Below, in pieces: positions 31,740-47,399 of a stretch of 64,000 bases of DNA (its first letter is position 1; each line of letters opens with the position of its first letter). The DNA comes from a virus, in IMG/VR virus record IMGVR_UViG_3300036851_000360, positions 1 to 64,000 of that record. One strand, given 5' to 3'. The position numbers and the translations under genes are program-made. The notes beneath the pieces are model-generated. The model searched no databases. It was not told the DNA's origin and worked only from the letters and a program-made list of their open reading frames with translations.

Positions 31740-32467
31740 CCCTGCTGCGGACGTACGAGCCCGCGAGGACCTGCACCGGCGGGCCCGAGCCGGGGGCGAA
31801 GGCGTTGATGGCGTGGTTTCTCGGCGCGTTCGGGTCGCAGGGCGGGAAGAACCTCGGCATCTACAACTGCCGGTCCGTCCGCGGTGGGTCCACCACGAGC
31901 TTGCACGGCGAGGGCCGGGCTTGCGACCTCGGTATCAACCCGCACGGCGCCCCCTACGGAACCCTCCTCGCCGAACGACTGCGGCTCAGCTCGGGCGAGC
32001 TCGGCATCCAGTGCCTCATCTGGAACCGGCGCATCTGGTCCGGCTCCTACCCCGATGCGGGCTGGAGGCACTACTCCGGCACCAACGCCCACGTTGAGCA
32101 TATTCACTTGGAGCTCTCAAGGGTGGCCGCGCGGAGCCTCACGCCAGCGCAGATTCAGCGAGTCCTGTCACCCGCCTCGCCCACCGCACGAGCGCCGTTG
32201 CCTCAGCCTGCGCCCCGCCCGCCAGTTCGGAAGGACGAACAGGTGTACATCAAGCACCAGCCCGACCCGACCAAGCCGGACATCTGGACCGCCCTGCTCG
32301 TGGGCCCGTTCTTCATCGGGCTGAACGCGAACGAGGCCCGTTCCGCAGACGGTGAGATCCAGCGGGGCGCGACCTGCCAGTGGGTGGAACGCGCGACGTG
32401 GGACGACCTGGACCGCCGCAGCATGGCCATCGCCCGCATTACCCCGAACACCCCCGGAGCGCAGTGA
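31736..32467 (+). CDS. endolysin, M15/LAS-type peptidase
   Basis: A 243-residue peptidoglycan hydrolase. The catalytic domain (residues 1-130) has the LAS metallopeptidase signature: STTSLHGEGRACD gives zinc ligands His57 and Asp64, and VEHIHLEL gives His124, as in M15 D,D-carboxypeptidase and ARV-1 VanY-like lysins. A Pro-rich linker (150-165) leads to a C-terminal domain (about 168-243) of unknown type, perhaps wall-binding. No signal peptide, so release should depend on the holin gene downstream. Coupled to the upstream gene by GTGA. Confidence 0.82.
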   Translation: MTLLRTYEPARTCTGGPEPGAKALMAWFLGAFGSQGGKNLGIYNCRSVRGGSTTSLHGEGRACDLGINPHGAPYGTLLAERLRLSSGELGIQCLIWNRRIWSGSYPDAGWRHYSGTNAHVEHIHLELSRVAARSLTPAQIQRVLSPASPTARAPLPQPAPRPPVRKDEQVYIKHQPDPTKPDIWTALLVGPFFIGLNANEARSADGEIQRGATCQWVERATWDDLDRRSMAIARITPNTPGAQ

Positions 32468-32520
32468 TCATGGGGGAGCACAGCCTGGTCAACGACCGGG
32501 ACGACACAACCGGAGGAACC

Positions 32521-32859
32521 GTGAATGTGCTTGGACGCGAGCCCGCGCAGTGGATCGGACTCCTGTCCGCCGCTGTCGCCCTGTTCTCTTCGCTCATCTT
32601 CCCGCTCGACGTCGGGCAGCAGGGCGCCGTGATCGCCGTCGCCACTGCCGGGTTCGGAATTGCGGGCGCGTTGGCGGTGTCGGCGGAGAAGGCTGCGCCG
32701 TTGGTCGCTGGCCTGGTGCAGTCGGTGATCGCCTTGGCGCTTGCCTTCGGGTTGCAGCTTCCCCCGGAGGTCCAGGGATCGATCATGGCGTTCGTTGCCG
32801 CAGGAGTGGCGTTCTACCTTCGCACTCAGGTCACCGCACCAGTACCCGCAGACGCCTAA
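32521..32859 (+). CDS. holin
   Basis: A 112-residue membrane protein with three to four hydrophobic segments (IGLLSAAVALFSSLIF; GAVIAVATAGFGIAGALAV; VAGLVQSVIALALAFGL; GSIMAFVAAGVAFYL) and the opening NVLGREPAQW common among actinophage holins. It would open the membrane to let the endolysin out. GTG 32521 follows GGAGG by 4 nt and is preferred; an in-frame ATG at 32470 would add 17 residues. Placed directly after the endolysin and before a terminator. Confidence 0.8.
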   Translation: MNVLGREPAQWIGLLSAAVALFSSLIFPLDVGQQGAVIAVATAGFGIAGALAVSAEKAAPLVAGLVQSVIALALAFGLQLPPEVQGSIMAFVAAGVAFYLRTQVTAPVPADA

Positions 32860-32959: not shown

Positions 32960-33370
32960 TCAGCGGTGGCGCCGTTCCAGGACTTCGCGTGCACGAGCGT
33001 GGTCCGCTGTGGTCAGCGGTGTTGGCGCGGCGACCGCTGCGTGGATGCGCTCGTACCAGCCGTCCAGGATCAGACCGACCGGCACCTCTTCCCAGTCGAT
33101 CGGGCCGACCAAGCGGGTCAGGCCCGCGATGCGGGACACCACGTTCTCGCAGTTGATCGACCAGTTGCCGTTCAAGGCGTGCTGCCGAGCGTCTCGCAAG
33201 TCGGACCAGGCCAACTTGAGCAGCCAACGGAGCGCCGAGTCGGGCGTGGCGTACTCCTCGTCCACCTGGCTAGCCGCCTCGTCGATGTACTCCAGCGGGT
33301 CGCGTTCCCGCCACCGTTCCCTGAGGTCGGCTGCGGTCAGCTCCACGTACTCGGTCACGGTGCTCCTCAC
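32960..33370 (-). CDS. hypothetical protein at end of leftward block
   Basis: A 136-residue, Trp/Asp/Arg-rich helical protein (TAADLRERWRERDPLEYIDE ... SDLRDARQHALNGNWSINCE). It ends 15 nt from the terminator and its start overlaps the previous leftward gene by 4 nt. The pattern resembles hypothetical proteins carried by actinobacterial plasmids and phages, but no function is known. Confidence 0.7.
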   Translation of the reverse strand: MRSTVTEYVELTAADLRERWRERDPLEYIDEAASQVDEEYATPDSALRWLLKLAWSDLRDARQHALNGNWSINCENVVSRIAGLTRLVGPIDWEEVPVGLILDGWYERIHAAVAAPTPLTTADHARAREVLERRHR

Positions 33371-33639
33371 CAGTCGAAGTACTCGTCGTAGTCGCCTTCA
33401 CCGGCTGTCGGCGATTTCCCCTCGAACGACCGGACGTGACCGGGCCAGTAGTAGGGCGCTGCCGCGGTGCGCTCACCGTTCGGGCTGAGGATGTCCCGCA
33501 GCTCGACGCACCACTCGACCGGGATCACCTCGTCGTGCAGATCCTGCCCGAGGTGCTCGGACAGCAGCCATTGGATGTCGTCGGGCTGCAGCATGCCAAG
33601 ATCGGCGGCGAGATCAGGAGCGGTCATACCCTCAGCCAT
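33367..33639 (-). CDS. hypothetical acidic protein
   Basis: A 90-residue acidic protein (APDLAADLGMLQPDDIQWLL ... EGDYDEYFDW). ATG 33639 has GGAGGGAGAAG upstream and overlaps the preceding leftward gene by 8 nt. No motif recognised; the strongly acidic C-terminus could mimic nucleic acid, but this is speculative. Confidence 0.65.
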   Translation of the reverse strand: MAEGMTAPDLAADLGMLQPDDIQWLLSEHLGQDLHDEVIPVEWCVELRDILSPNGERTAAAPYYWPGHVRSFEGKSPTAGEGDYDEYFDW

Positions 33640-33898
33640 GGGGCTTCTCCCTCCGGAAACGTCGGGCGCCGTCCTCGCGCACCGTGCCATCCCAGTAGTA
33701 GGTGACAGCGTCGTAGAGCACCGCCTTGGATGCCTCGGTCAGTCCGAGGCCGGGTTGGGAGTCGTAGTCCTTCACCGCGACCCGGCGGCCCTCGGGGATC
33801 TCGAGGCGGCCGTAGCGTAGTTGGTCCGCGCTCACTTTGAACTCGCGACCGTCGTACGGCCCCCCGATGACCACGGCAAGGACCACTTCGTCAGCCAC
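33632..33898 (-). CDS. hypothetical protein
   Basis: An 88-residue protein beginning MADEVVLAVVIGGPYDGREF, a pattern common to many short actinophage and plasmid proteins (strand, GGPxDGxE turn, strand). It overlaps both neighbours and is part of a leftward four-gene unit. Function unknown. Confidence 0.7.
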   Translation of the reverse strand: MADEVVLAVVIGGPYDGREFKVSADQLRYGRLEIPEGRRVAVKDYDSQPGLGLTEASKAVLYDAVTYYWDGTVREDGARRFRREKPHG

Positions 33899-34322
33899 GG
33901 TTCACCTCCGTGTCCGGCGCCCACTCGGCCCTGTACGAGCCGTGACCAGCGTAGGGGAGAGCGAGCAGGCGCAGGGTCGGGCATGGCCACTCTAGGTAGC
34001 TGTCCCACGGCACCGGCGCGTGATCACAGAGTGTGCAAGTCCACCGGTACGGCGGACCACCCTCGACCCCACGCGGCTTGTGTAAGTCGATGATCCGCCG
34101 TTTCGCCTGTACCTCCGCGAGAACCCGCGCCGGATCCCACAGGGCGATGTGCCGAGCGTCCCGCTTCCGGTCGGCGACGTGGACGAGCTCGTCGTCAGGC
34201 CACCGGCAAACGTCTTCCTCCTCGGAGAGCCACCTCTGCCCCTCGTAGTGCGCGTCCTGCGCCACCTGCTCGTCCTCGTCGACCCGTTCCTTGAGGAAGG
34301 CCTCGAGCTCGTCACTCACCAA
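33891..34322 (-). CDS. DUF6221-like protein
   Basis: A 143-residue protein with the arrangement of the actinobacterial DUF6221 group: acidic N-terminal helix (DELEAFLKERVDEDEQVA), central VADRKRDARHIALWDPARVL then EVQAKRRIIDLH, and a C-terminal region with Cys residues and LLALPYAGH. The family is common on actinobacterial mobile elements and phages; its biochemical role is unknown. First gene of the leftward unit that ends at 32960. Confidence 0.75.
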   Translation of the reverse strand: MVSDELEAFLKERVDEDEQVAQDAHYEGQRWLSEEEDVCRWPDDELVHVADRKRDARHIALWDPARVLAEVQAKRRIIDLHKPRGVEGGPPYRWTCTLCDHAPVPWDSYLEWPCPTLRLLALPYAGHGSYRAEWAPDTEVNRG

Positions 34323-34351
34323 CGATCTCCGTCCGCTCGTAGCCTGCGATA

Positions 34352-34537
34352 ATGCCGCACTTCCGCCCCTACCAGGTCATCCCCGGTCACCCCATCACCA
34401 TCACGATCACCGCCGTGGACGGTGGGCGGGCCGAGGTGGTCGGGACGGTAGCCAAGGTGACCGACGTCGCGAGCCCGTCCACTGTGCTGCGGATGGAAGT
34501 CGTCGACGCCCACGTTCGGCCGCTACCAGCGAAGTAG
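34352..34537 (+). CDS. small beta-rich hypothetical protein
   Basis: A 61-residue rightward ORF between two leftward genes: MPHFRPYQVIPGHPITITIT followed by alternating strands. Codons are strongly G/C at third positions. No good ribosome site is visible before ATG 34352. No family recognised. Confidence 0.45.
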   Translation: MPHFRPYQVIPGHPITITITAVDGGRAEVVGTVAKVTDVASPSTVLRMEVVDAHVRPLPAK

Positions 34538-34538
34538 G

Positions 34539-34748
34539 TCACCTCTTCGATCCTCCCAGCTTCTCCGCGGCCAGCGCCGCCGAGTACAGGGTGCACGGCG
34601 ACTTCACCTTCCCCGACGAGTCCCCGCCGCTCGGGCACTTCGGGCAGCGCCCATCCGCCCCCGGCTTGTGCTCGGTGAGGATCTTCCTCGTCGTGTCGTG
34701 CCTCAGAATGAACCGCACCAGGTCCCCCGACAGGTCCTGGGCGCTCAC
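34539..34748 (-). CDS. small zinc-binding hypothetical protein
   Basis: A 69-residue protein with HKPGADGRCPKCPSGG ... SPCTLYSAAL, a compact Cys/His site seen in many short actinobacterial plasmid and phage proteins. GTG 34748 with GAGG 5 nt upstream is chosen over longer in-frame starts, which would overlap the divergent promoter region of the gene at 34837. Confidence 0.6.
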   Translation of the reverse strand: MSAQDLSGDLVRFILRHDTTRKILTEHKPGADGRCPKCPSGGDSSGKVKSPCTLYSAALAAEKLGGSKR

Positions 34749-34836
34749 CCCACCCTCAACATGTAGTGCTGCATTCGTGTGCTCCCCACACTGGTTGTGT
34801 TGGTTCCTGTCATGGTCTGGCCGCATACTGCAAGCC

Positions 34837-35250
34837 ATGGCGGAGACAGCGCAGATACCTGCCTGGGTGGCGGTCACCCCCCGGGCGGTTGTCGACTGCC
34901 ACTGGATCGCCCACCAGGTAGCCGCCGAGGTCGGCAGGGCGTCCGTCCACGGTGAGGTGTGCTCGATCCTCGACTGGGTCACCACAGACCTCCCCGACGA
35001 GGCCGCTGTTCATGCGCGGGTGGTAGGCGACGACACCAGCACTCTCGCGTGGCTCCTCGGGTTCACCCCCGTCCCGCCGATCGAGCTGCCCCGACGCAAC
35101 CCCGACGGCACCGTCGTGACAGTCGAGCAGGTCACGGCTGAGCTGCTGGTCGGGAAGACGGGGATGCCGGAGCAGCGCATCGCCGCCGAGAACCAGGCCC
35201 ACCGCCAGGTCGCCCGGTGGCGGCGTCTCGCGTCCCTGGTGCCGCACTAG
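34837..35250 (+). CDS. hypothetical protein
   Basis: A 137-residue rightward gene set against the leftward transfer block, its end facing the gene at 35247. Globular alpha/beta composition (VDCHWIAHQVAAEVGRASVH ... LLGFTPVPPIELPRRNPDG). ATG 34837; the frame is open further upstream, but only the part from here looks coding. No family recognised; it probably has its own promoter in the 34749-34836 gap. Confidence 0.6.
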   Translation: MAETAQIPAWVAVTPRAVVDCHWIAHQVAAEVGRASVHGEVCSILDWVTTDLPDEAAVHARVVGDDTSTLAWLLGFTPVPPIELPRRNPDGTVVTVEQVTAELLVGKTGMPEQRIAAENQAHRQVARWRRLASLVPH

Positions 35251-35579
35251 CGCCTCACTCGTGCGGCACCAGCGTCTTCGGCGGGTGCAGGTGTCCACTC
35301 CGCCGGCCGCTGCTCCGGGATCCGCGGCAACCCCGGGAAGTCGCCTTCCCGCGATCTGGCCCACTCGTCCCGGTCCCCGTACGGCGGGTACCGCACCTTC
35401 TGCAGCTCCGTGTACTCGCCGGGCAGTTCGTGGGTGCGGTGGTACTGGCCGCCGGCGTAGTCGTCGTAGGACTGCATCCGGTCCGAGCGGAGCTCGAGTG
35501 CCAACCGGGCGGCGACGACGAGTTCATGGTCGTGGGGGAGCTGCGACAGCTTCAGCCCCAGGTCTGCGGCGTCACTCAT
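35247..35579 (-). CDS. hypothetical protein coupled to relaxase
   Basis: A 110-residue protein whose ATG overlaps the relaxase stop (ATGA), so it is translated with it. N-terminal helix (DAADLGLKLSQLPHDHELVV) then a Tyr/Arg-rich region (YDDYAGGQYHRTHELPGEYT) and a Pro-rich tail. It may be a transfer accessory. No family recognised. Confidence 0.65.
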   Translation of the reverse strand: MSDAADLGLKLSQLPHDHELVVAARLALELRSDRMQSYDDYAGGQYHRTHELPGEYTELQKVRYPPYGDRDEWARSREGDFPGLPRIPEQRPAEWTPAPAEDAGAARVRR

Positions 35580-38500
35580 GCCCGTTCCCTCACTCGTGCC
35601 TGCTCGTCTGCCATCTCGGGTGCGGCCAGCCACCGGGTTTGCCGTTCGGCCTCTTCCTCCGCCGCCCGCATCTCGTCGGCGCGGTCACGGTCGGTGCGCT
35701 CAAGGAGGGACTCGCGGGCTCGTCTCACCGAGTCCGCCACCGCATCCGCTGCCGGCACTTCCCGCCGGATGCGTGGGTCGTGTTCCGTCGGATCCGCGAT
35801 CGCAACGTCGCGGATGTCCGCCACAGCTGTCTCGAGGGGCTTCCGCGGCACGGGCAGTTCATGGACGTGCTCGCCGACGAGATCTTCCTCGTGGATCGGG
35901 CGGCGTTCATCGTCGGCGACCCGGTCGGCTTCCTCCGCCGCCAACCACTCCGCCATCGTGGTCCGATCCTCTGGGCGGGCCAGGTCAACTTCGCGGCGCG
36001 CCAACTCCGCCTTGGCACGCTCACCCGAATCACGGGTGCCGGCGGTGTGGAGGAACCACGCGGTCCGCTCCTTGTCTGCGACCTCAAGGTTGAGCTTCAA
36101 CTGTTCGAGCTGTGCCGCTTCCTGTTCAGCCTTGACTGCCGCCTCGAGGACCCCCCGCTTCTCGTCGCCTTCGAGGGTTTCGGCGTGCGCCCGCCACAAC
36201 CCGACCTGGTTTCGACGGTCCGCCAACTGCTCGGAGGTGGCCGCGAGTTCGTCCGCGACATAGCGGGGGGCCCACAGCTGTTCCCGTTCCCATGCCGCGG
36301 CCCGGGCGAGAAGCTGCCCGTCGGACTGCATCGCCTCCTCCGGCCCGACATCCGGCAGGCCGAGAGCGTCGTGGGCGGTCGCCCAGATCGCGCGCTTCTC
36401 CGCCAGCCCTGCGGCGGGGGCAGGGCCGAGCGGGTCATGCTCGTCCGTGTACTCGGCGCCCTCCCGGGACGCGGCTGCCCAACCGGCGCGGGACTCCCAC
36501 ACCGCCCGCCGTAGCGGATCCTCCGGGACCGGCCCCAGTGTCTCCATCGCCCAGGGTGGACGTTCCTCCGCCACCCTTGCGCCGAGCTCGTGACGCCGCT
36601 CATCAGCCTTGTCGGCTTGTTTCTCAAGCCAACCGCGCCACACGTCGCTCACCCCGGCGGGGATGAGGTCCCGGTAGGAGGTGATCCGCGGGATCTGTTT
36701 CCCGAGGGTGTTGCGGATGCGGGCGTGCAGCACCTGCGCTGCTCTCTCAGCGCCAGCCAGGGACTTCCCTTCCAGCGCGTCGCGGAGCACGCCCTCGGGG
36801 TTGTGGCCAGAAACCTCCGCGTTGCGGAGGAGTCGCTCCACAGCGCTCATCGCCTGGTCCGCGGCCAGCGCCTCACGTTGTTCAGGGGTGATGACGCCTT
36901 CCGCGGCGAGCCGATCCAGGCGGGTTGAGGTCGCGCCGGCGGTGGCCTCGTTGATCCCAACGAGTAGCCGGTCGACGTTGCGGAAGGTGGACTGCTCGTC
37001 CTCGATGGCCTGCTCGCGCTGGGCGATCGCCCCCCGTTCCTCCTCGGCGTTCTTGAATGAGTCCGCGAGGACAGCCTTTGCGGTGCGACCCTCGACCTCC
37101 TGCGCTTCCCCGACGGGCGCGTCGGAGGCCAGCTGCTTGGTGGTGACCCACGCTGTGTTCGACTCCCGGCCGCGTGTCATCCCCACGTAGGTGCCGGTGA
37201 GGTCGTGCCCGGTGTCGACGGTGCGGCCCTGTGCGGCGTGCAGGGTGGAGGCGTAGGCGAGGGACAGGTGCTTCTCGACGTAGCTGGCGCTCAGAGTTAG
37301 CGCGACCCCCTTGCTGGTCTCCACCCGCAGTGCCCCGTCGGCGAGGAAATGAGTCACCCGGTACGTCTGCCGGTTGATCAACGGGAGAGGGTTACGGCCG
37401 AGGCGCCAACTGTTCTTTCGTGCCTGCACAAGGTCGCCGATCCCGGCGATGTTGCCGTCTTTGCCGAGACGTACACCGCGTTCGGACACCTTCCCCAACC
37501 GGACGAGCTCGGCCCGGAGCTGGGCGTTCACCTGGGCGGCCTGGTCGTTGCTGCGGACCAACAGCAGGGACTTTTTCCCTGCGAGGGTGTCCGCCAGCCA
37601 CGCCTGCCCTGCCTTGTGCTCGGCCTGTTCGGTTGTGCCGCAGCCACGCAACCGGCCGTGCTTGTCGTACTCGTCGAGGGCTGCGACATTCCCTTCACGC
37701 CACAGCAGCGACGCCGTGCGTTCCCACTCCTCCTGGAACCGCCACACCTGCGTCAGCTCGTAGGACCGTGCCGTGCGACGGAGATCAGCGAACACCCCAC
37801 CGGCCTCGACTGAACGCATCTGCCGTGCGTCGCCGACTGGCAGGAGTTTCGCCCCAACCTCCTCGCACCGCTGCACCAGATCGGCCATGTCCCGGGTGGA
37901 TGCCATCCCCGCCTCGTCCACCACGACCAGGTCACCGGCTCGCAGTTGTAGGGAGTCGTCGTTCTCGACCGCGAGGCGCCACCGGTCGAAGTTGAACGAC
38001 TCCACCCCCTCTTCAGCCATGACGTCGGCGGCGTTCTGCGAGGCGGCCAGCCCGAACGTGCGGCGGCCATGTTCGGCCCACGCGCCCGCGATCAGCCCGA
38101 CAGTTGTCGACTTGCCAGTACCGGCGGCAGCGGAGATGGTTTCCACGTAGGCGCCGGAGGTGAGGACGCCGCAGATCGCGGCCTCCTTGTCCGCCCCCAA
38201 CGTCTCGTCCGCCGCCTCGTTGTAGCGGCGGATGAACGCATCCACCTGCGCCTGGCTCAGCTTCGCCGCCCCAGTCCTGACAGCTGCCTGCTCAGCGATC
38301 CGCTCCTCGGCGATCTGCCCGACTGTGGCGAACTGGGCGGAACCGGGACGCTGGAACGCGGACAGATCACCGGCCAACCGGAACTCGGCTGGCAGGCCGT
38401 CAACCGACTCTTTGGCGACAACGACCTTGGCTTCGGCGAGGGCCTTGTCGGCGAGCCGCTCCAACATCGCGGGGATGTCACCGGCGGGGACACCGAGGTT

Positions 38501-39799
38501 CGCGGGGAGCGCACCCGAGATCGCGAAGATCAGATCGGAGCGGGTCCACACGTGCTCGTTTTTCCCGACTTCCCACAACGCCGCCTTGATCACCTGAGAG
38601 GGGGAGACTTCATCCGCCCGCCCTTGCCCCTTCAGCGCGAGGACGTCGTGGGCGACCTGCTCCAACCCGCCCACCATCTTCGTGCGGGCCTCACGCTCCC
38701 ACCGGTCCAACCGCTGTTCCGCGGTCTCCCCGGTGTGCGACTTCCCCTTCCTCGTCAACAGGGTGGCGCGTTCGGCGATGTACTGCCGCTCCAACGGCGA
38801 CACGGACCGGCCGTGCTGCTCCTCGTACTCGCGGATCAACTGCTCCGTCTTCGCGGTGACCGCGTGGGACCGCTTCGAAAACAGGTCCATGAGCTGCTGC
38901 GGCACACCCGCGATCTCGCGGATGATCCCGTCCTTGCGGGCGTCGCGGGTCACAAACCGGACCCCCAACGTGCGGGCGAGCTCGGCCTCCATGACCCGCT
39001 CACCCACCGCGGCGGCAGCCCACTTGTGCAGCGTCAACGCCGCCCCGTCGACCCGGCCCCACTTCCCATCAGCGCGTTCGTGAACGTTCAGGATCGCCTG
39101 GTGCACATGCAGCTGTGGATCCCGCTCCCGGGAGTCGTGCTGCAGGAACTGGGCGACGATGAACCCCTTCTGCTCCATCCAGCGACCCGCACCGGAGGAG
39201 TGGTTCCCAACCCGGGCGTACGCGTTCGCCTCGAGGTAGTCGACACTTGCCGACGCGCCAGCCATCGCTGCGCCCTCAACCGCGCTGAGCATGGCCCGCC
39301 ACGATGCCGCCTCCTGATGACGTCCTGCACCAGCGGCGACGTTCATCGCCCGCTCGAAGGCGACCGCCAGGAGGGTCACGGACTTCGGGACCGAGAAGGT
39401 GGCATCCCAGAACGCCACCGCCTGCCGCGACTCCCGCTCCGCCGCAGCCTGAAGTTCGGCTCGCCGCTCCGGGCCCGCATCGGGCTCCTTCGCGAGCGCC
39501 TCTTTGTAAATCTCGTCCGGTGACCGGTAGCGGCGGTGGGCGGGAGCCAACGCCCGCGCCTCCGCCCACATCTCCCGGTGATGGGTGGCCTCGTCGCGAG
39601 GGTCGAGCAGACGGGCGTAGATCGCCTCCATCAGATCGGAGTTGACCTCGCCCGCCAGCCCGAGAGCCTGGGCGCCCCGCCCATGCCAGCCGCCGGGCGG
39701 TTCACCCGCGGCTACGGCACCCGTGTAGTAGCCCTCCCGCCCGGTCGACACCGGTCCGGTCAGGTACCCCACCGAGTAGCCCTTGGTCACCTTGAACAC
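35576..39799 (-). CDS. traA: MobF relaxase-helicase (TraA/TrwC type)
   Basis: A 1407-residue conjugative relaxase that would nick one strand at oriT, stay bound to the 5' end and unwind it for transfer. The N-terminal TrwC domain has candidate tyrosines (Tyr8, Tyr12, Tyr24, Tyr25), the DATFSVPKSVTLL motif (about 132-144) and a histidine triad (His221 and His231/His233 in DPQLHVHQAI). The C-terminal SF1 helicase has Walker A AAAGTGKS (about 557-564), Walker B LVVVDEA (about 624-630) and late motifs STLHAAQGRTVD and YVGMTRGRESNTAW. Full length and intact. GTG 39799. Linked to a coupling ATPase upstream. Such an enzyme is unexpected in a phage genome. Confidence 0.93.
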   Translation of the reverse strand: MFKVTKGYSVGYLTGPVSTGREGYYTGAVAAGEPPGGWHGRGAQALGLAGEVNSDLMEAIYARLLDPRDEATHHREMWAEARALAPAHRRYRSPDEIYKEALAKEPDAGPERRAELQAAAERESRQAVAFWDATFSVPKSVTLLAVAFERAMNVAAGAGRHQEAASWRAMLSAVEGAAMAGASASVDYLEANAYARVGNHSSGAGRWMEQKGFIVAQFLQHDSRERDPQLHVHQAILNVHERADGKWGRVDGAALTLHKWAAAAVGERVMEAELARTLGVRFVTRDARKDGIIREIAGVPQQLMDLFSKRSHAVTAKTEQLIREYEEQHGRSVSPLERQYIAERATLLTRKGKSHTGETAEQRLDRWEREARTKMVGGLEQVAHDVLALKGQGRADEVSPSQVIKAALWEVGKNEHVWTRSDLIFAISGALPANLGVPAGDIPAMLERLADKALAEAKVVVAKESVDGLPAEFRLAGDLSAFQRPGSAQFATVGQIAEERIAEQAAVRTGAAKLSQAQVDAFIRRYNEAADETLGADKEAAICGVLTSGAYVETISAAAGTGKSTTVGLIAGAWAEHGRRTFGLAASQNAADVMAEEGVESFNFDRWRLAVENDDSLQLRAGDLVVVDEAGMASTRDMADLVQRCEEVGAKLLPVGDARQMRSVEAGGVFADLRRTARSYELTQVWRFQEEWERTASLLWREGNVAALDEYDKHGRLRGCGTTEQAEHKAGQAWLADTLAGKKSLLLVRSNDQAAQVNAQLRAELVRLGKVSERGVRLGKDGNIAGIGDLVQARKNSWRLGRNPLPLINRQTYRVTHFLADGALRVETSKGVALTLSASYVEKHLSLAYASTLHAAQGRTVDTGHDLTGTYVGMTRGRESNTAWVTTKQLASDAPVGEAQEVEGRTAKAVLADSFKNAEEERGAIAQREQAIEDEQSTFRNVDRLLVGINEATAGATSTRLDRLAAEGVITPEQREALAADQAMSAVERLLRNAEVSGHNPEGVLRDALEGKSLAGAERAAQVLHARIRNTLGKQIPRITSYRDLIPAGVSDVWRGWLEKQADKADERRHELGARVAEERPPWAMETLGPVPEDPLRRAVWESRAGWAAASREGAEYTDEHDPLGPAPAAGLAEKRAIWATAHDALGLPDVGPEEAMQSDGQLLARAAAWEREQLWAPRYVADELAATSEQLADRRNQVGLWRAHAETLEGDEKRGVLEAAVKAEQEAAQLEQLKLNLEVADKERTAWFLHTAGTRDSGERAKAELARREVDLARPEDRTTMAEWLAAEEADRVADDERRPIHEEDLVGEHVHELPVPRKPLETAVADIRDVAIADPTEHDPRIRREVPAADAVADSVRRARESLLERTDRDRADEMRAAEEEAERQTRWLAAPEMADEQARVRERA

Positions 39800-39805
39800 T
39801 ACGGT

Positions 39806-40006
39806 TCAGCTCCGCACCCGCGCGTACTGCTGCAGCCGGGCGTTCGGGGTCGCGTCGAACGTCCACGACGCCGGCGTGAGCAGCTCGCACACGTTGGCGA
39901 TCGCCGCCCGGGCGGCCTGCCGCGCCATGTCGGTGCGGTAACCCATCGGGTGGGTTTGCGCCCCCCACGAGTTCGGCACCCCCCACCGCACGTATCCGTT
40001 GTCCAT
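39806..40006 (-). CDS. small hypothetical protein upstream of relaxase
   Basis: A 66-residue protein (MDNGYVRWGVPNSWGAQTHP ... ARQAARAAIANVCELL), ATGA-coupled to the gene before it and ending 6 nt before the relaxase start. Its position directly ahead of the relaxase suggests an accessory or regulator, but no DNA-binding motif is certain. Confidence 0.65.
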   Translation of the reverse strand: MDNGYVRWGVPNSWGAQTHPMGYRTDMARQAARAAIANVCELLTPASWTFDATPNARLQQYARVRS

Positions 40007-40266
40007 CAGCGGGCCCGCCCGTCGGTGTTGTCCGGGCAGGCGGGCAGCCAAGAGATGACCTGCTCGGCGGTCAGGCCGACCCGCTCAAGGGCAGCGAAAT
40101 CGGCAGCGTCAGGGGTCTCGACGAAGTCGCCATACACGGCATGCCGTTGGATTCGGCCCTTCGCGTCGCCTGCGTCCGCCCACGCCCAGTTGAGTTCCTG
40201 CTCGGCGATCCGCTCGGCCCGCTCCTCGGCGGTGAGTTCGTCGTCAGGGTGGAAGTTCTCGGTCAT
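40006..40266 (-). CDS. small acidic helical protein
   Basis: An 86-residue acidic protein (DDELTAEERAERIAEQELNW ... LERVGLTAEQVISWL). It overlaps both neighbours by ATGA junctions. Function unknown; length and position match small accessory genes of relaxase operons. Confidence 0.65.
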   Translation of the reverse strand: MTENFHPDDELTAEERAERIAEQELNWAWADAGDAKGRIQRHAVYGDFVETPDAADFAALERVGLTAEQVISWLPACPDNTDGRAR

Positions 40267-40523
40267 CGGGCCCGTCCTTCCTCGGCGGGCTGGCCGCGGT
40301 ACTCGATCCACGAGGCCGTGCCGTACGGGTTCTCCGTGATCCAGTTGGCGCTGGCGTTTGCCAGCGCGTCGTCACGGTCGGCGCCGCGGATCCCGTCGTC
40401 GTGGCTGGTGCCGTTCGGCCAGTGCACGGTCACGTCGTGCCAGGGCTGGCCCTGCTGGGCCTGCCGTTCGGCGTAGGCCGCCTCGATCTCGGCCGCGATC
40501 TGCGGATCGGTCAGGTCTGCCAT
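40263..40523 (-). CDS. small hypothetical protein, first gene of relaxase operon
   Basis: An 86-residue protein (MADLTDPQIAAEIEAAYAER ... RDDALANASANWITENPYG). GAAGGAAG precedes ATG 40523. It begins the unit 40523 to 35247 that contains the relaxase. No family recognised. Confidence 0.65.
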   Translation of the reverse strand: MADLTDPQIAAEIEAAYAERQAQQGQPWHDVTVHWPNGTSHDDGIRGADRDDALANASANWITENPYGTASWIEYRGQPAEEGRAR

Positions 40524-40559
40524 GTGGATCTTCCTTCCTGTGTCGTTCACACCGCTGGA

Positions 40560-40689
40560 TTGGCCAATGCATCGGTGTGGCTTCCTTCTTTGAGCTGTTA
40601 TGGGATCTTGGGGACGTGTGGTGATCTTGAGTAGATGGATCTTGTGAGGTGAGTGGATCTAGATAGATAGAGATCGGTTAGAGGTTGTT
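40560..40689. promoter_or_regulatory. AT-richer repeat region; candidate oriT or operator
   Basis: The gap between the coupling-protein operon and the relaxase operon is clearly richer in A/T than its surroundings. It holds GATCTTG at 40604, 40623 and 40638 and GATCTAG at 40656, spaced 15-19 bp, plus an inverted pair gatct/agatc at 40656-40675. Such repeats next to relaxase genes are typical of transfer origins or regulator sites. It must also contain the promoter of the relaxase operon. The exact nick site cannot be told from sequence. Confidence 0.4.
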
Positions 40690-41370
40690 CTATGGCCTGC
40701 GGAGCTTGAGTTCTCGGTGCTTGCGTGCGTCCTCGAGCTGCTCGTCGGTAGGCGCCGGCGGGAGGCCGGTGGTGCTCCACGCTTCGGCGACCGCATGGAT
40801 GTGGCCGGCAAGCGGCGCCGCGAGGGGCTCCTTAGCTGCCTGACCTGCTGGTTTGTGGTCCTGAAGGCTGCACGACCCGAGGTGTTTGCGGACCCGCTCG
40901 ACCAGGCGCGGCATGGACTGGTCGTGCCACATGCCCTGCGCTACCGGGTCGTCCTGCGACCCGTACGCCTTCGCGTGGTACCGGCGCAGCCACAGGAGCT
41001 CTTCGATCAGCCAGGGGTGCCAGGCCCAGCAGGAGGGCAGTTCGTTCCCGGGATACCGCAGGTAGACGGCGTTCAGCCACGTCTCGAGGTCGCGCAGACG
41101 CTCGTCAAGTTTCTCGGGGTCTTCACCGACCTGCAGTAGCCACGCCCGTCCGTCGTCCTTCCCTCCTGGCGCGAGGAGGGCGACGAGGCCTTCCTCGAGG
41201 TGCCGGAAGGCCTTCCACATCCCCCGGAGTTCGTCGTCCCACCCGCGTGCGTCGCCCAGTTCCTGCAGCCGGCGGGAGTGCCGGTCGAGCTCCCGCCCGA
41301 TCGTCTGGGCGTCGAGCGGCTGGGTGGGCTCCTCGGGTGGGGGTCCTGCGGGAGGGTCAGTGGGTGGCAT
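40690..41370 (-). CDS. hypothetical transfer-associated protein
   Basis: A 226-residue protein following the coupling ATPase, overlapping it by 14 nt. The Pro-rich N-terminus is followed by a helical domain (IGRELDRHSRRLQELGDARG) and a Trp-rich core (CWAWHPWLIEELLWLRRYHA) with features like the DUF4913-type proteins of actinobacterial conjugative elements. Role unknown; operon context suggests DNA transfer. Confidence 0.7.
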   Translation of the reverse strand: MPPTDPPAGPPPEEPTQPLDAQTIGRELDRHSRRLQELGDARGWDDELRGMWKAFRHLEEGLVALLAPGGKDDGRAWLLQVGEDPEKLDERLRDLETWLNAVYLRYPGNELPSCWAWHPWLIEELLWLRRYHAKAYGSQDDPVAQGMWHDQSMPRLVERVRKHLGSCSLQDHKPAGQAAKEPLAAPLAGHIHAVAEAWSTTGLPPAPTDEQLEDARKHRELKLRRP

Positions 41371-43201
41371 TGGTCAGCTCCCGGTCGGGTGCGGCACCCA
41401 CGGGTACAGGTGTCTGTGGGTGGGTGGGTGCTGGGAGGTCGATGGGTGCGGGTGCCGGGAGCGCAACGGGGTGGGTGACCAGGTGGGTGGGAGATGGCCG
41501 GGAGAACACCCGGCGGGCACCCACACCCACGAGGCGGGTGAGAACCGATGGGTGTCGCTTCCACACGGGGATGACCCGCCCGATCACGATGGGCATGTCG
41601 CCCGTGTAGACGATGGCCTTCCACTTCGGGAGGCTCGCCAGTTGTCCCACGGACAGCACAGGCGCTTTGCGCACGGACGTGGAGGTGATGTCGCCGTCGC
41701 CGTTGCGGGTGACGACGGTTTCGTCGCGGTCGCCGGCGAGGTCGGAGAAGGCCTTCAGGCCACCGACGGCTTTGTTGCCGCCGATGTACATGAGCACGTT
41801 GGAGTTGTTGATGAGCCGCTCGGCTCCGGCCTCGCCGTACTTCGCGATCATGTCGGCGTAGGACTGGAACACCGGCATCAGCTGGATGCCGGAGCCGCCG
41901 AAGTCTCCGGACCAGTCGGGCAGCGGGACGGGGCAGACCCGGGCGGCCTCGTCGAGCGGGAACCGGATCGGCGGGTCGAGCCGCCCCCGGCACGCCCCCT
42001 CAAACGACGGCAGCGCTGCGAGACGGCGGGCTTCGCGGGCGATATACCCGGTCAGCGCTTGCAGCAGCGGAGCAGTGTTCGCCTCATGCCTGCCCAACAA
42101 ATACACGGTGCCCTTGCCGCGGATCAGTTCGGCAACGTTGAACGGGGCGGCCCCCTTGGTGGAGGCGGCCGCCGCCGGCGAGTGGAGCCACTGCAGTGCG
42201 GGCAAGATCCCGGTGGTGATGCTCGAGCGGGTGGTCGGGTTCAGGCCGATGAACTGATCGACGGCGGGCCGGAACGACGGGACCGGGGACGCCTGGAGAA
42301 GTTCATGTACCTCATCGCCGATGTGGTCGGGATTCGCGACCCAGCGGAGGATGTCGTGGCAGTCCCGGGTGCCCTCGGACAGGCCGGCGGCGTGGAGGAA
42401 CGCGGCGAACACCCGCCGGGACTGGGCATCCCAGTCCGCCGAGTCTCCGCGTACACCCTCCCGCTCGGGGATCATGTCTGCGGCCCGGTCGATCGCCACC
42501 GTGGGGTCGTCGCACCCGTGGACGGGGTCGAAGCTGATCGTGGAGTCGACTTCACCCACCCAGGCCGGGTTGTACACCCAGATGGGACCCGTCTTCGCCC
42601 GCAGCTCCCGGGTCTGGTCGTAGAGGTCGGTGCGGGTGGAGGTGGTGACTACGGCCCCGGGGGCGTCGATGACGGGGGTTCCGAGGAGGGCGGTCTTGCC
42701 TCGGCGGGGGCCCGCGACGATGAGTACGACGTCTTCGGCCGAAGCCCACACCCGCATCCCGGCCGCCCGACACAGCAGCACACCCAGCTCCCGGGTGGGT
42801 GTGCGCCACCGCTTCACCCACCCGGCATCCCGTAGGTGCGGGCGGACAGCGCGGGCCTTGCGGTGCATCGCCCACCAGGAGGTGCCGCGGGCGACCTGTA
42901 AGGGGGTGGCGACGCCCGAGCGCCGGCGGGCCTTCTCGCCCCACCGGGTGACGGTGCGGGCCGTCCCGCCGCGCCACCACACCACCCCCGCCACGCAGGC
43001 GACGCCTGCAATGGTGAGGACACCGGCGAGGGTGAGAGCCCCATGGCTCATGTACAGCCACGCGGAGACGCCGACACCGCCGCCGATGCCGACCTTGCGG
43101 GAACTGCCGGCCAGACCGCGCTTGAGCTTGCGGATCCAGTCGCCCACGAAGATGGCGGCGGCCACACCTGCGGTGACGAGGACGACGAACTCGGCGGTCA
43201 C
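41357..43201 (-). CDS. type IV coupling protein (VirD4/TraG-like ATPase)
   Basis: A 614-residue inner-membrane ATPase that would bring the relaxase-DNA complex to the transfer channel. Two N-terminal membrane segments (about residues 2-21 and 44-75) precede the motor domain with Walker A AGPRRGKTALLG (164-170) and Walker B RFPLDEAARV (415-420), plus TGILPALQWL and NNSNVLMYIGG motifs usual in TraG/VirD4 proteins. It is not an FtsK/TraB-type translocase. The C-terminal 60 residues are Pro/Thr-rich. GTG 43201 overlaps the upstream stop (GTGA); the longer ORF to 43282 is rejected. Confidence 0.9.
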   Translation of the reverse strand: MTAEFVVLVTAGVAAAIFVGDWIRKLKRGLAGSSRKVGIGGGVGVSAWLYMSHGALTLAGVLTIAGVACVAGVVWWRGGTARTVTRWGEKARRRSGVATPLQVARGTSWWAMHRKARAVRPHLRDAGWVKRWRTPTRELGVLLCRAAGMRVWASAEDVVLIVAGPRRGKTALLGTPVIDAPGAVVTTSTRTDLYDQTRELRAKTGPIWVYNPAWVGEVDSTISFDPVHGCDDPTVAIDRAADMIPEREGVRGDSADWDAQSRRVFAAFLHAAGLSEGTRDCHDILRWVANPDHIGDEVHELLQASPVPSFRPAVDQFIGLNPTTRSSITTGILPALQWLHSPAAAASTKGAAPFNVAELIRGKGTVYLLGRHEANTAPLLQALTGYIAREARRLAALPSFEGACRGRLDPPIRFPLDEAARVCPVPLPDWSGDFGGSGIQLMPVFQSYADMIAKYGEAGAERLINNSNVLMYIGGNKAVGGLKAFSDLAGDRDETVVTRNGDGDITSTSVRKAPVLSVGQLASLPKWKAIVYTGDMPIVIGRVIPVWKRHPSVLTRLVGVGARRVFSRPSPTHLVTHPVALPAPAPIDLPAPTHPQTPVPVGAAPDRELTNATH

Positions 43202-43452
43202 GACCGCGCCCCTGCCCGCTGGCTGTAGGTGTGGCGCAACTCCAGGGACGTCCCGAACGCGCAGATGAGCGCGAAGATCCATGACTGCGGTGTCGCGTAG
43301 ACGAGGACCGCACCCAGCGCGAGCGTGGACGCCCCCATGAACCCGGCGCTGAGGGCGCCTGCCGGGATGCTGATCCAGCTACGGGTGGTCACCCGGGAGA
43401 TGACGGAGAGGCCGACCGACAGAGCGAAGTACGAGAGCAGAAGGCTGATCAT
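43198..43452 (-). CDS. small membrane protein in transfer operon
   Basis: An 84-residue protein with hydrophobic helices at about residues 2-20, 27-50 and 53-68 (LLLSYFALSVGLSVI; GALSAGFMGASTLALGAVL; SWIFALICAFGTSL) and a basic tail. Overlaps both neighbours by 4 nt. Possibly part of a membrane complex with the coupling protein. Confidence 0.7.
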   Translation of the reverse strand: MISLLLSYFALSVGLSVISRVTTRSWISIPAGALSAGFMGASTLALGAVLVYATPQSWIFALICAFGTSLELRHTYSQRAGARS

Positions 43453-44360
43453 GCGGGCTGGTGTCCGTTCACGGAGAGGCTCTTCACGAGCTGCTTGGCG
43501 GTGTGCTCGGTGACGCCGAGCTTCTTCTGGAGGACGACACGACCGGCACCACCGGCGATGAGTTCGCGGGCCTTGTCGAGGTCAATGTCCCGTGGGGGTG
43601 CGACCGGACCTCGTGACGAGGTCTCCTTGCCTCGCGACGAAGTACCATCCGGTGTCGTCGTAGCCCGGGGTGCGGTCTGCCAGCGCAGCGACAGGCCGTT
43701 GTCGTCGACCTGGGAGAGATCGGGAACGACGACGTCCTCAACCCGCTCGAGCGCGGGGACGTCGACCCGGCCAACGGTGTGAGCGTCCTGTCGCCGTGCC
43801 CGCTCGACCCGGTACGACTCCCATGCTTCACGCGGGTCGGTGATGCCCTGGTCGATGGACCAGCGGCGGGCACCCAACGTGCGCCACGGGAAGTGCCGCC
43901 ACCGCTCGGCCGAGAACAGGGCCCCGGTGTCGTCGAGGCGGCCTTCGACGCTCAGCTGAATGTGGTGGGCGCGGCGGGTGTGCAAGCCCCACAGCCAGGG
44001 GCTGGACAGGGAGAACAGGGCGAACATGACCGCTGCCGGGCTGGGTGCCCAGCCGGTGGAGAAGTGGCTGTAGTTGACGGCGGCGGCCACACCTGCGAGG
44101 AGGTAGGACCAGCGCCGATACTTGGCGGCGGTGGCGGTGTCCTTCCGTAGGAGGGCGTCGTGGGCGTGCCACTGCACGTACAGGGAGATGGATTCGAACG
44201 CCGCCGCAGCCCCGCCGGCGATGACCACTGTCAGCGGGAACCAGTCCTGTCGGAACGCGTCGAGCCCGAACTGGAACTGGCCGTAGACGGCGAAGCAGGT
44301 GACGAGGGAGATTGGGGCGACGGTCCGCCAGGTCACGTCGTCGCTACGGCTGGTGTCCAT
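43449..44360 (-). CDS. DUF2637-like membrane protein with C-terminal helix-turn-helix
   Basis: A 303-residue protein. The N-terminal half has about four membrane helices in the pattern of DUF2637/SpdB-type plasmid-spread proteins of actinobacterial conjugative elements (VAPISLVTCFAVYGQFQFGL; FPLTVVIAGGAAAAFESISL; SYLLAGVAAAVNYSHF; VMFALFSLSSPWLWGL). The C-terminal part, after a flexible linker, ends in a putative helix-turn-helix (ARELIAGGAGRVVLQKKLGV then TEHTAKQLVKSL). It may bind DNA at the membrane during transfer. Family match is by pattern. Confidence 0.75.
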   Translation of the reverse strand: MDTSRSDDVTWRTVAPISLVTCFAVYGQFQFGLDAFRQDWFPLTVVIAGGAAAAFESISLYVQWHAHDALLRKDTATAAKYRRWSYLLAGVAAAVNYSHFSTGWAPSPAAVMFALFSLSSPWLWGLHTRRAHHIQLSVEGRLDDTGALFSAERWRHFPWRTLGARRWSIDQGITDPREAWESYRVERARRQDAHTVGRVDVPALERVEDVVVPDLSQVDDNGLSLRWQTAPRATTTPDGTSSRGKETSSRGPVAPPRDIDLDKARELIAGGAGRVVLQKKLGVTEHTAKQLVKSLSVNGHQPA

Positions 44361-44653
44361 CAGGACCGGCCGTCCCTACCCCGGCCGACCCGCCGCGGGA
44401 TGATGAACGCCAGGTTGACCAGGGCGATCACGAACCCCAGCAGGCCCACGGTGAACACGAACTGGGCGGCCCCGGTGGTCAGCCACAGCTCGCGCATCGG
44501 AATGCCAACCACCACGGCGGCGACAGGTGCGCCGGGGAACAGCCACAGCCCGGACTCCTTGAAGTCGGAGTGCCGTGGGGGCAGGTCGAGCCGAGGCAGC
44601 GGCTGGGTGGGCTGCTCTGAGCGGGGGGCAGCCTCGTGGGCTGGGGCGCTCAT
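44360..44653 (-). CDS. small membrane protein in transfer operon
   Basis: A 97-residue protein with two hydrophobic segments (about residues 42-58 and 63-85: WLFPGAPVAAVVVGIP; AAQFVFTVGLLGFVIALVNL) after a soluble N-terminus, and a basic C-terminus. ATGA overlap with the next gene. A longer ORF to 45076 covers other genes and is rejected. Confidence 0.7.
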   Translation of the reverse strand: MSAPAHEAAPRSEQPTQPLPRLDLPPRHSDFKESGLWLFPGAPVAAVVVGIPMRELWLTTGAAQFVFTVGLLGFVIALVNLAFIIPRRVGRGRDGRS

Positions 44654-44868
44654 CGGGCCCACCCCTCGACCACGTCGGCGGCCTCGGCCTCCCACGTGGC
44701 GTCCAACCCGTCTCGGGCGAACTGCGAGAGGCCCCCGTCGTAGTGCCGCTCGACACCGCGCAGGATCTCCGTGTCGGACATCTCCAGGATGTCCTCGGGG
44801 TTTTCCTTCCAGCTGCAGTCGAGGACCCAGTCGCGGGCGGCCTGAACGAACTCGGGGTGGCTGCTCAT
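44650..44868 (-). CDS. small acidic protein
   Basis: A 72-residue acidic, Trp-containing helical protein (FVQAARDWVLDCSWKENPED ... GVERHYDGGLSQFARDGLDA). Overlaps both neighbours by 4 nt. The composition resembles short proteins common to actinobacterial mobile elements. Function unknown. Confidence 0.65.
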   Translation of the reverse strand: MSSHPEFVQAARDWVLDCSWKENPEDILEMSDTEILRGVERHYDGGLSQFARDGLDATWEAEAADVVEGWAR

Positions 44869-45164
44869 CGGGCCCGCCCCTCGGCGAACCGGCCGGTGGT
44901 GAACACGGCGGCCTGCGCGTCCCACGCCTGGTGGGGGTGTTCGACCTGGGCGTGTTCTCGGATCGTGGCCTGATTGCGCTGGCCTGCGATGGCCGCCAGG
45001 CGGTCGTAAAACTGGCTGAGGGTCGCGAAGTACGGGCGGCCGAGGTCGGCTCGGCTACGGTCGGCATGCCAGGCATCGCCGCGGGTGCCGAGGTCGCGCC
45101 ACAGGTCGGTGAGGGACCTGCTGTCCGGCGTGGTGCCGGTATCGGGTGGGCTGTCAGACTGCAC
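44865..45164 (-). CDS. hypothetical protein in transfer operon
   Basis: A 99-residue protein (SLTDLWRDLGTRGDAWHADR ... LSQFYDRLAAIAGQRNQATI). GTG 45164 with AGGAAGGA 8 nt upstream is chosen over in-frame 45242. A hairpin lies just upstream at 45200-45234. Function unknown. Confidence 0.6.
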   Translation of the reverse strand: MQSDSPPDTGTTPDSRSLTDLWRDLGTRGDAWHADRSRADLGRPYFATLSQFYDRLAAIAGQRNQATIREHAQVEHPHQAWDAQAAVFTTGRFAEGRAR

Positions 45165-45199
45165 GTGCCTGTTCCTTCCTGGGAGGTTGGTTCGGGTAG

Positions 45200-45234
45200 G
45201 GCCCCGGCGGGAGTTGCAGCTCCGTGCCGGGGCC
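45200..45234 (-). terminator. intra-operon hairpin, possible attenuator
   Basis: A strong stem-loop (GGCCCCGGC with GCCGGGGCC as outer arms, GGAG/CTCC inside) lies between the stop at 45239 and the ribosome site of the gene at 45164. With no T-run on the minus strand, it may lower rather than end transcription into the transfer operon. Confidence 0.5.
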
Positions 45235-45238
45235 GTCT

Positions 45239-45418
45239 TCACCGGGCGGCCGCATCCTCAGGTGCTGGTGCGACGGACTTCCAAATGCTGGCCAGCTGCT
45301 GGGCGTCACCCCGCTGATACGCGGCCTCCGCGGAGGCGAACAGTTCGTCCGCGCACGTGAACCGGTGCGACCCGGCAACCGCCTTGATCCGCGCGAGGAG
45401 GGTTTCGAGGTCGGTCAC
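45239..45418 (-). CDS. small helical protein
   Basis: A 59-residue ORF starting at GTG 45418, overlapping the upstream stop (GTGA). Product: MTDLETLLARIKAVAGSHRF then TCADELFASAEAAYQRGDAQ and a short C-terminus ending PEDAAAR. Codons fit the neighbours. Second gene of the leftward transfer operon; function unknown. Confidence 0.7.
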   Translation of the reverse strand: MTDLETLLARIKAVAGSHRFTCADELFASAEAAYQRGDAQQLASIWKSVAPAPEDAAAR

Positions 45419-45597
45419 CGGGTCACCGCCGTGGGGCGGGCCAGGAACACCGTCACGTCACCGCTGTTGCGGAGCTGCGTCAGCAACGTCAGCAGGCACA
45501 CCCAGCAGATCTGGCCGGCGCCGACCTCGTCGACGGTTGGGATGAGGGCACGGTCCCGGCCGGCACGTTTACCGCAGGTGGAGCAGGTGTTCGCCAT
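45415..45597 (-). CDS. small zinc-ribbon protein, first gene of transfer operon
   Basis: A 60-residue protein with two CxxC pairs (NTCSTCGKRAG and QICWVCLLTLL), a zinc-ribbon pattern. GGAG precedes ATG 45597. It starts the leftward unit that carries the coupling protein, divergent from the HTH-NUDIX gene. Could be a regulator or adaptor. Confidence 0.7.
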   Translation of the reverse strand: MANTCSTCGKRAGRDRALIPTVDEVGAGQICWVCLLTLLTQLRNSGDVTVFLARPTAVTR

Positions 45598-45704: not shown

Positions 45705-46307
45705 ATGACAGATCCACGCCAACTACTCAGCAGCGTCCAGGCCGGCAAAGAGCTAGGCCTAGCTGCGAGCACGCTGTGGCGCTGGCACCACAGCGGGAAA
45801 ATTCGAGCCGACTTCGTGACACCCGGCAAGCACCTGCGCTGGGACGTCGACCGGCTCAGGCGCTTCCTCGCCAACCCCGACATGGAGGAACTGAACGTGC
45901 CCGAGCCGGCCTCGAACCCAGAGCACCCGTCTGTCGTCGCCGCGATCGTCACCTCACATCTCGGCGTCCTCGCGGGACGGCGCAACGACGGCAGGCCGCC
46001 ATGGACGTTCATCGCCGGCGAGATCGAACCTGGCGAGTCGCAGATAGACGCCGCCGTGCGAGAGGTTAAAGAGGAAACGGGGCTGCTTGTCCGGGCCGGG
46101 CATCACGAGATCGGCCGACGGGTGCACCCGAAGACCCGCCGCACGATGATCTACCTGGCGTGCACCCCGACGCATGGCACCGACGTGTTCGTCGGCGACG
46201 AGGACGAGCTCGCCGAGGTGCGGTGGCTGTCGCTCGAGGAGGCGGACGAGCTGCTGCCGGGGATGTTCGAGCCGGTCCGCGAGCACCTCGGCCGGGTCAT
46301 CTCCTGA
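45705..46307 (+). CDS. HTH-NUDIX protein, Pif-like
   Basis: A 200-residue two-domain protein. Residues 1-55 form an excisionase/MerR-type helix-turn-helix (LLSSVQAGKELGLAASTLWR). Residues about 75-200 form a NUDIX hydrolase with an intact box at 105-127 (GEIEPGESQIDAAV then REVKEETGL). In the integrative element pSAM2, the NUDIX protein Pif blocks incoming transfer between cells that already carry the element. The same fusion beside transfer genes here suggests an immunity or transfer-control role. GGGAGGG precedes ATG 45705. The substrate is unknown. Confidence 0.85.
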   Translation: MTDPRQLLSSVQAGKELGLAASTLWRWHHSGKIRADFVTPGKHLRWDVDRLRRFLANPDMEELNVPEPASNPEHPSVVAAIVTSHLGVLAGRRNDGRPPWTFIAGEIEPGESQIDAAVREVKEETGLLVRAGHHEIGRRVHPKTRRTMIYLACTPTHGTDVFVGDEDELAEVRWLSLEEADELLPGMFEPVREHLGRVIS

Positions 46308-47177: not shown

Positions 47178-47399
47178 TCACATGAGGCTGATCAGGGCAT
47201 TGGTGAGCGCGTTGCCGGCCTTGTCCGCGCGTGCGCGCCGGGCTCGGTCGTACCGGAGCGTGGTCGACAGGTACCGGTGGCCGAGCTGCATCTGTACGTC
47301 TCCGACGGACGCGCCGGTGTCGAGCATCAGCGTGGCGCAGGTGTGGCGGAGCCCGTGCATGGTGCGGAAGTCCTGACCCGCGAGCCGTGAACTTGCTGG
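47178..47399 (-). pseudogene. tyrosine recombinase C-terminal remnant
   Basis: The last 60-73 codons of a phage-type tyrosine integrase: AGQDFRTMHGLRHTCATLML then GASVGDVQMQLGHRYLSTTL. The catalytic box (R and H of HGLRHT, H of LGH, Tyr of TLRYDRA) is present, but the rest of the catalytic domain and the N-terminus are missing. A stop at 47400-47402 closes the frame and the serine integrase gene region begins just beyond. It is a decayed earlier integration system. Confidence 0.85.

Follow-up and report, generated by a model that had tools for sequence, protein, structure and literature searches.

Phages and conjugative elements are commonly held to be distinct routes of gene transfer. The closest functional precedent for an element that combines them is pZL12 (NC_013420), a Streptomyces plasmid-phage for which, according to papers that cite the original report, both conjugation and a lytic phage cycle were described (Zhong et al., 2010, cited in PMC4487206 and PMC3583192). 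Here, we describe a 64,000-nt window of viral DNA, corresponding to positions 1-64000 of the 72,180-bp IMG/VR tailed-phage record IMGVR_UViG_3300036851_000360 (hereafter G000), in which a block at 32960-45597 encodes a MOBF relaxase-helicase and a VirD4-type coupling protein. Unlike this phage, pZL12 is an autonomous plasmid with ParA and ParB, carries annotated FtsK/SpoIIIE-like and Tra3-like genes, shows no MOBF relaxase match, and does not integrate as a phage. The idea of an element spread by both conjugation and virions already has its precedent in pZL12; a phage that integrates and carries a MOBF relaxase plus a coupling protein is a different case. In our reading, to which we assign a probability of roughly 0.68, a temperate tailed-phage lineage took up and retained the mobilization module of an integrative and mobilizable element (IME), and the prophage would be mobilizable via a helper channel. 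Integrating tailed phages equipped with a relaxase, a coupling protein, and an origin of transfer (oriT) would show a single virus using both routes. Conjugative entry could in principle sidestep surface-receptor resistance and pass on the prophage without donor death.

Among phage-labelled records, that of Mycobacterium phage Adler (KF981876) resembles G000 in listing a putative relaxase and a VirD4-like protein, but its relaxase is 24% identical over 41%. The annotations under KF981876 and KC960489 (Adler; L045-L047) comprise FtsK, EccD, PPE, relaxase, VirD4-like, and ParA proteins, with no annotated terminase or capsid. Adler was set aside as a precedent, since the phage-labelled record is probably that of an ESX-type conjugative plasmid. 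Across the annotated phages of INPHARED, the weak Adler match was the only one to the relaxase, and no match to the coupling protein was obtained. In the open-access literature, with subscription papers outside the search, no report of a phage carrying both a MOBF relaxase and a coupling protein was found.

The relaxase gene (35576-39799, minus strand) encodes a TrwC-type protein of 1407 aa. Its Pfam matches to TrwC (8.5e-47; 160 bits against a cut-off of 25) and AAA_30 (6e-50) are accompanied by an NCBIfam MobF score of 140 bits (cut-off 100). The catalytic residues Tyr12, Tyr24/25, Asp132, and His221/231/233 are kept in 32 phage, element, and plasmid relatives; the motifs of the fused superfamily 1 (SF1) helicase are intact, with GKS, DE, and R residues that are invariant or nearly so among these 32. 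By domain, catalytic-residue, and helicase criteria, the product is assigned to the MOBF relaxases, and nicking at an oriT is predicted. The likeness to R388 TrwC and F TraI extends to the residues of the HUH fold and the relaxase-helicase architecture, and the relaxase profile matches the TrwC and TraI structures. However, both are distant from the phage relaxase, and their oriT sequences are unlike the site discussed below.

The coupling protein (41357-43201, minus strand) comprises 614 aa, or 641 aa if started at an upstream ATG. It matches TraG-D_C (1.9e-20) and T4SS-DNA_transf (2.2e-14), both over the Pfam cut-offs, and begins with two hydrophobic transmembrane (TM) helices. Walker B reads LDEA, and Walker A is a variant, AGPRRGKT (GGPRxGKT in relatives). 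By domain, TM, and Walker criteria, the protein qualifies as a VirD4-type coupling protein. An earlier description of this DNA, made from the letters and their open reading frames (ORFs) and here called the sequence-only reading, had named a 1407-residue relaxase with HUH residues and helicase motifs and a 614-residue coupling ATPase with two helices and Walker motifs. Both assignments are borne out by the family searches, with the qualification that Walker A is a variant.

The surroundings of the block are those of a tailed phage, as that reading had also stated. G000 encodes small and large terminase subunits (TerS and TerL), an SPP1-type portal, a P22-like coat protein, a tail tube (major tail) protein, a tape measure protein, and a holin, and its terminase, portal, coat, tail, lysis, and integrase genes place it among the tailed temperate phages. 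On the plus strand lie TerL (407-2158; PHROG 3e-71), the portal (3042-4490; Pfam SPP1_portal 4e-43), the coat protein (6482-7696; Pfam 1e-14), the tape measure protein (10730-14359; PHROG 8e-94), the holin that forms the left neighbor of the block (32464-32859; PHROG 1e-21), and a large serine integrase of 495 aa with Resolvase, Recombinase, and Zn_ribbon_recom domains (47468-48955). The block had been placed between a holin terminator and the serine integrase; the holin and integrase flanks are as described, while a consensus scan detected no intrinsic terminator just past the holin. The phage itself encodes a Prim-Pol/D5 replication protein. A phage-plasmid would have genes for plasmid replication or partition in place of an integrase; no Rep or Par genes were seen among the scanned G000 proteins (some small ORFs lay outside the scan), and the serine integrase is present. 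Gene-order comparison with the related contig G002 places the end of G000 beside its terminase start; therefore, the record appears to be a near-complete circular map.

A database search for the relaxase and coupling protein amid phage genes, the check that the sequence-only reading had put forward, yielded three further IMG/VR phage contigs with the block at the equivalent place. These are G001 (69 kb; relaxase 88% and coupling protein 59-61% identical), G002 (55 kb; 67% and 54-55%), and G003 (41 kb; relaxase 63%), the last of which stops short of the coupling protein. The coupling protein is thus found in all three contigs long enough to reach its position. In all four phages, the tail and lysis genes are followed by the block on the opposite strand. 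Most head and tail genes of G000 and G002 are ~65-87% identical, with TerL and the tape measure protein at 37-44%. G001, in comparison, has an HK97-type terminase, portal, protease, and capsid unrelated to those of G000, yet has the tail-fibre, lysis, and block regions in common with it; therefore, the block appears to have stayed with the lineage through an exchange of the head module. Comparison of the relaxase genes gave a ratio of nonsynonymous to synonymous substitution rates (dN/dS; Nei-Gojobori) of 0.13-0.31, and that of the coupling-protein genes gave 0.38-0.51, similar to the values for structural genes of the same phages (0.22-0.66). By this measure, the relaxase and coupling protein are maintained by purifying selection.

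Outside phages, the nearest relaxase relatives in genome contigs come from Pseudonocardia and other Pseudonocardiales, where the cassette runs in the order DUF2637-type membrane protein, coupling protein, ~210-aa protein, and relaxase, several elements adding a convergent small gene. In P. parietis DSM 45256, the cassette lies at about 5.92 Mb of a 7.27-Mb contig together with tyrosine integrase, Prim-Pol, and DUF3987 genes. Gene order in this element matches that of the phage block, from the DUF2637 protein through the coupling protein, the ~210-aa protein, and the oriT-like site to the MOBF relaxase and the convergent gene. It likewise has an integrase and no VirB4 nearby (the only AAA_10 match of the genome is 5.2 Mb off). 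Unlike the phages, which put the module in a complete tailed-phage genome, the element has Prim-Pol and DUF3987 genes of its own, and none of its scanned genes is of phage type. A relaxase tree (n = 32) unites the four phages in a single clade (100/100) that is nested among the Pseudonocardiales elements; therefore, the module was probably acquired once, from a Pseudonocardiales element. The same ancestry suggests a host within the Pseudonocardiales.

A more distant likeness exists to two Streptomyces plasmids, those of S. tendae (35 kb; NZ_CP043961) and GD-15H (46 kb; NZ_CP149448), which carry mobF, VirD4-type, ~205-aa, and DUF2637 genes, have a phage-type core site upstream of mobF, and lack VirB4. 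They differ in being autonomous plasmids whose relaxases are oppositely oriented and ~35% identical to that of the phage. More generally, VirB4 is absent from 9 of the 11 complete plasmids with related relaxases and present in two Nocardiopsis plasmids.

Our analysis adds to the sequence-only reading a candidate oriT, a non-coding region of 166 bp (40524-40689, minus strand) upstream of the relaxase operon. It contains the lowest-GC 160-bp stretch of the record (GC 0.488 vs. 0.681 in G000) and has an equivalent gap in all four phages. The equivalent region is the GC minimum of G002 and, for G003, of the part that bears the relaxase (L016); in G001 it ranks second lowest. Within it, the candidate core CACACCGATGCATTGGCCAATCC (40557-40579, minus strand) forms a hairpin with the 3' arm CGGTGTG (to 40548; DNA fold z of -2.3); the 7-bp outer arms (CACACCG/CGGTGTG) occur in G000 and G001. 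Four AGATC direct repeats inferred from sequence adjoin the hairpin (40604-40660, minus strand) and are candidate sites for an accessory protein. The core pattern CACACC-N3/4-GCAT-N3/8-ATCC has one match in the window, vs. 0.01 expected by chance, and one match in each of the other three phages.

Most Pseudonocardia elements, and several Streptomyces plasmids, likewise have the core pattern ahead of mobF on the relaxase strand. A matrix built solely from Pseudonocardiales element sites detects it ahead of mobF in plasmids of Streptomyces and Nocardiopsis with scores of 25-41 bits, where shuffled genomes reach maxima of 10-19 bits. Since a short site is kept across relaxases that are ~35% identical, and at a variable distance from the gene, an origin of transfer fits better than a promoter. 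A general form of the site, CACACC-NNN-GCATCACGATCCGATGG, precedes mobF both in plasmids of actinobacteria and in Pseudonocardiales elements (L022-L042, L043, L082, L084, L086, L087, L089, and L090). It is a candidate for a family-wide MOBF oriT signature, and the conserved cis-site may serve as such in actinobacterial plasmids of the MOBF type and in integrative elements; the open-access literature searched yielded no published oriT for either. A loose version of the pattern was also tried on viral contigs and rejected; the matches listed fell on scattered contigs, and chance matches are expected given the size of the collection.

Neither a VirB4-like ATPase (no AAA_10 match at E<=1) nor an FtsK/SpoIIIE (TraB) translocase (no PF01580 match) was found in G000-G003, in line with the earlier statement that no VirB4-like ATPase is visible. 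Therefore, the block would amount to one half of a conjugation system, the half found in IMEs; a VirB4-free machine is less likely. Of the traits that define an IME, G000 has an integrase, a relaxase, and an oriT (a candidate by sequence) without a VirB4 of its own; it departs from the definition, which excludes virion genes, in carrying complete head, tail, and lysis genes. By gene content, G000 is IME-like in makeup but filed as a phage. Integrative and conjugative elements (ICEs) of Actinobacteria that use a type IV secretion system (T4SS) are recognized by a VirB4-like AAA_10 protein besides an integrase, a type IV coupling protein, and TrwC (PMC3218068). On the genes detected, G000 is not a T4SS-type ICE by that definition, as it is without VirB4, nor is it an actinomycete ICE (AICE), as it is without TraB.

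If the module works as we propose, the lineage would have retained a MOBF relaxase-helicase together with a VirD4-type coupling protein of its own and an oriT, plus two further proteins, the DUF2637-type membrane protein and the ~220-aa accessory protein. The prophage would be excised as a circle by the integrase (a serine integrase, or a tyrosine integrase in G001). The relaxase would then nick within 40524-40689, unwind the circular prophage, and pilot a single strand of it. Docking of the relaxase-DNA complex to the type IV secretion channel of a co-resident conjugative element would fall to the coupling protein. In the recipient, the strand would be re-circularized and then integrated. The phage would thus have two exits, as virions upon lytic induction and by mobilization out of living lysogens. 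The orientation of the block, opposite to the lytic genes, and its position next to the integrase and repressor hint at expression in the lysogen. The sequence-only reading had likewise proposed a phage with a mobilization module in need of a borrowed channel, and the related phages, the purifying selection, the kinship with IME and plasmid modules, and the candidate oriT all agree with that proposal.

Among the alternatives, the phage could be self-conjugative, the relaxase, coupling protein, DUF2637 protein, and ~220-aa protein making up an unrecognized, VirB4-independent actinobacterial machine for single-stranded DNA transfer. An equivalent gene set occurs in complete Streptomyces plasmids of 33-46 kb with VirB4 and TraB/FtsK absent from the whole record, the P. 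parietis cassette has no VirB4 nearby, and the membrane protein and ~220-aa protein travel together with the coupling protein. Nevertheless, the two related Nocardiopsis plasmids, in which a VirD4-type gene adjoins mobF, do have VirB4, and relatives of the module can therefore use a T4SS; moreover, we know of no VirD4-type conjugation without VirB4. We regard this explanation as unlikely; if true, it would describe a virus with two complete and independent routes of spread, virions and conjugation. At about the same low level, or marginally below it, stands co-option of the relaxase-helicase for phage replication or recombination, e.g., as a rolling-circle initiator with no present part in conjugation. 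Relaxases are akin to rolling-circle initiators, and the best PHROG match of the relaxase is labelled "Dda-like helicase". This role is made less likely by the phage's own Prim-Pol/D5 protein and by the coupling protein, which is also intact and conserved and which replication would not preserve. The cis-site common to plasmids and IMEs, and the orientation of the block against the lytic genes, likewise speak against it.

The block might instead shield the lysogen or prophage from other mobile elements, e.g., by competing for the T4SS coupling site (fertility inhibition). Its place on the lysogeny side, adjoining the integrase and repressor (inferred from position), would suit such a function. 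However, a decoy needs no intact helicase, catalytic Tyr and His residues, or oriT, and we consider this improbable, somewhat more so than a role in replication. Least credible is an assembly chimera or a recent, decaying plasmid insertion, either of which the sequence-only reading had named as fatal to its proposal. The arrangement is common to four contigs, the genes are intact with low dN/dS, and GC content is uniform across the block except at the candidate oriT; at the sequence level, this explanation was rejected.

Several observations nevertheless weigh against mobilization of the prophage via a helper channel. Transfer, nicking, and expression are predictions from sequence, and the host is proposed from the ancestry of the relaxase. 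No helper T4SS was identified, and cultured hosts yielded no integrated copy that includes the block; a Pseudonocardia search by phage tail protein returned matches to one common domain only and no prophages. A prophage in a Pseudonocardiaceae genome (G110), with a portal ~60% and a coat protein 76% identical, is without such a relaxase; therefore, the block is accessory and dispensable for that phage type. As for the cis-site, DNA folding gives a weak hairpin in G002 and none in G003. The phage core sites also show 1-2 nt indels relative to the element and plasmid consensus, and an ungapped matrix misses the core in G000-G002, where the gapped pattern alone finds it.

Besides the relaxase and coupling protein, 16 minus-strand ORFs were counted in the block, more than the "about ten small genes" first reported, and the earlier statement that all lie on the minus strand does not hold, since a conserved gene at 34837-35250 is on the plus strand. 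This convergent gene (137 aa) is kept in all four phages, with weak relatives (29-41%) at the equivalent place in Pseudonocardia elements. A helical protein of 226 aa (40690-41370, minus strand), always adjoining the coupling protein, is 31-67% identical in phages and Pseudonocardia elements. It has no Pfam, PHROG, or PDB fold match, and its predicted structure (predicted local distance difference test (pLDDT) 80, predicted template modelling score (pTM) 0.50) had no PDB match at E<=0.001; it is a candidate relaxosome or coupling accessory factor. The membrane protein called DUF2637-like in the sequence-only reading (43449-44360, minus strand; 303 aa, with a C-terminal helix-turn-helix (HTH)-like segment) is related to that family by sequence comparison. 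Its C-terminal 43 aa are 56% identical to the Pfam-positive DUF2637 protein of the P. parietis element, and its counterparts in G001 and G002 align with the latter over nearly the full length (41-43%); the 303-aa protein itself gives no DUF2637 match.

The remaining genes of the block are small. On the minus strand, an 84-aa hydrophobic protein (43198-43452) overlaps the coupling-protein start by 4 nt. Proteins kept in both G001 and G002 include a 97-aa membrane protein (44360-44653), a 66-aa protein directly ahead of the relaxase (39806-40006), and a 110-aa protein directly past it (35247-35579). Two small ORFs between the candidate oriT and the relaxase (40006-40523) are not conserved and mark a variable slot. 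Toward the left edge lie a 90-aa protein (33367-33639) with 76% identity in two other phages and a block-conserved DUF6221 protein (33891-34319; Pfam 5e-29). Divergent from the block is an HTH-NUDIX fusion (45705-46307, plus strand; Pfam NUDIX 4e-19, N-terminal HTH_17), 70% identical in G001 and a candidate regulator. In Pseudonocardia elements, short HTH-like relatives sit close to the cassette.

A stereotyped junction, GGCCCGRTGA, recurs among the small genes around the candidate oriT; it overlaps the next start codon and yields C-termini of the form -G[RW]AR. It occurs at 40263, 44650, and 44865 of the window and at 48951, 49196, and 49492 of G002 (all minus strand), and the genes between these junctions vary among phages, as if small genes were exchanged in and out. 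The arginine tails (-GRAR/-GWAR) were considered as T4SS export signals, and this was rejected, as they are mostly a by-product of the junction sequence.

Elsewhere in the phage, a tail protein (16997-20986, plus strand; scanned from 16721) has chondroitinase-B-like and alginate-lyase-like domains and is likely a capsule- or polysaccharide-degrading tail component. A sortase-domain protein (29763-30410, plus strand; Pfam 2e-16) in the tail and lysis region has ~60% identical relatives in G001 and G002. Finally, a remnant of a tyrosine integrase C-terminus (47178-47399, minus strand; PF00589, 1.7e-9) adjoins the intact serine integrase, and G001 has an intact tyrosine integrase near the block; the remnant looks like a fossil of integrase replacement.

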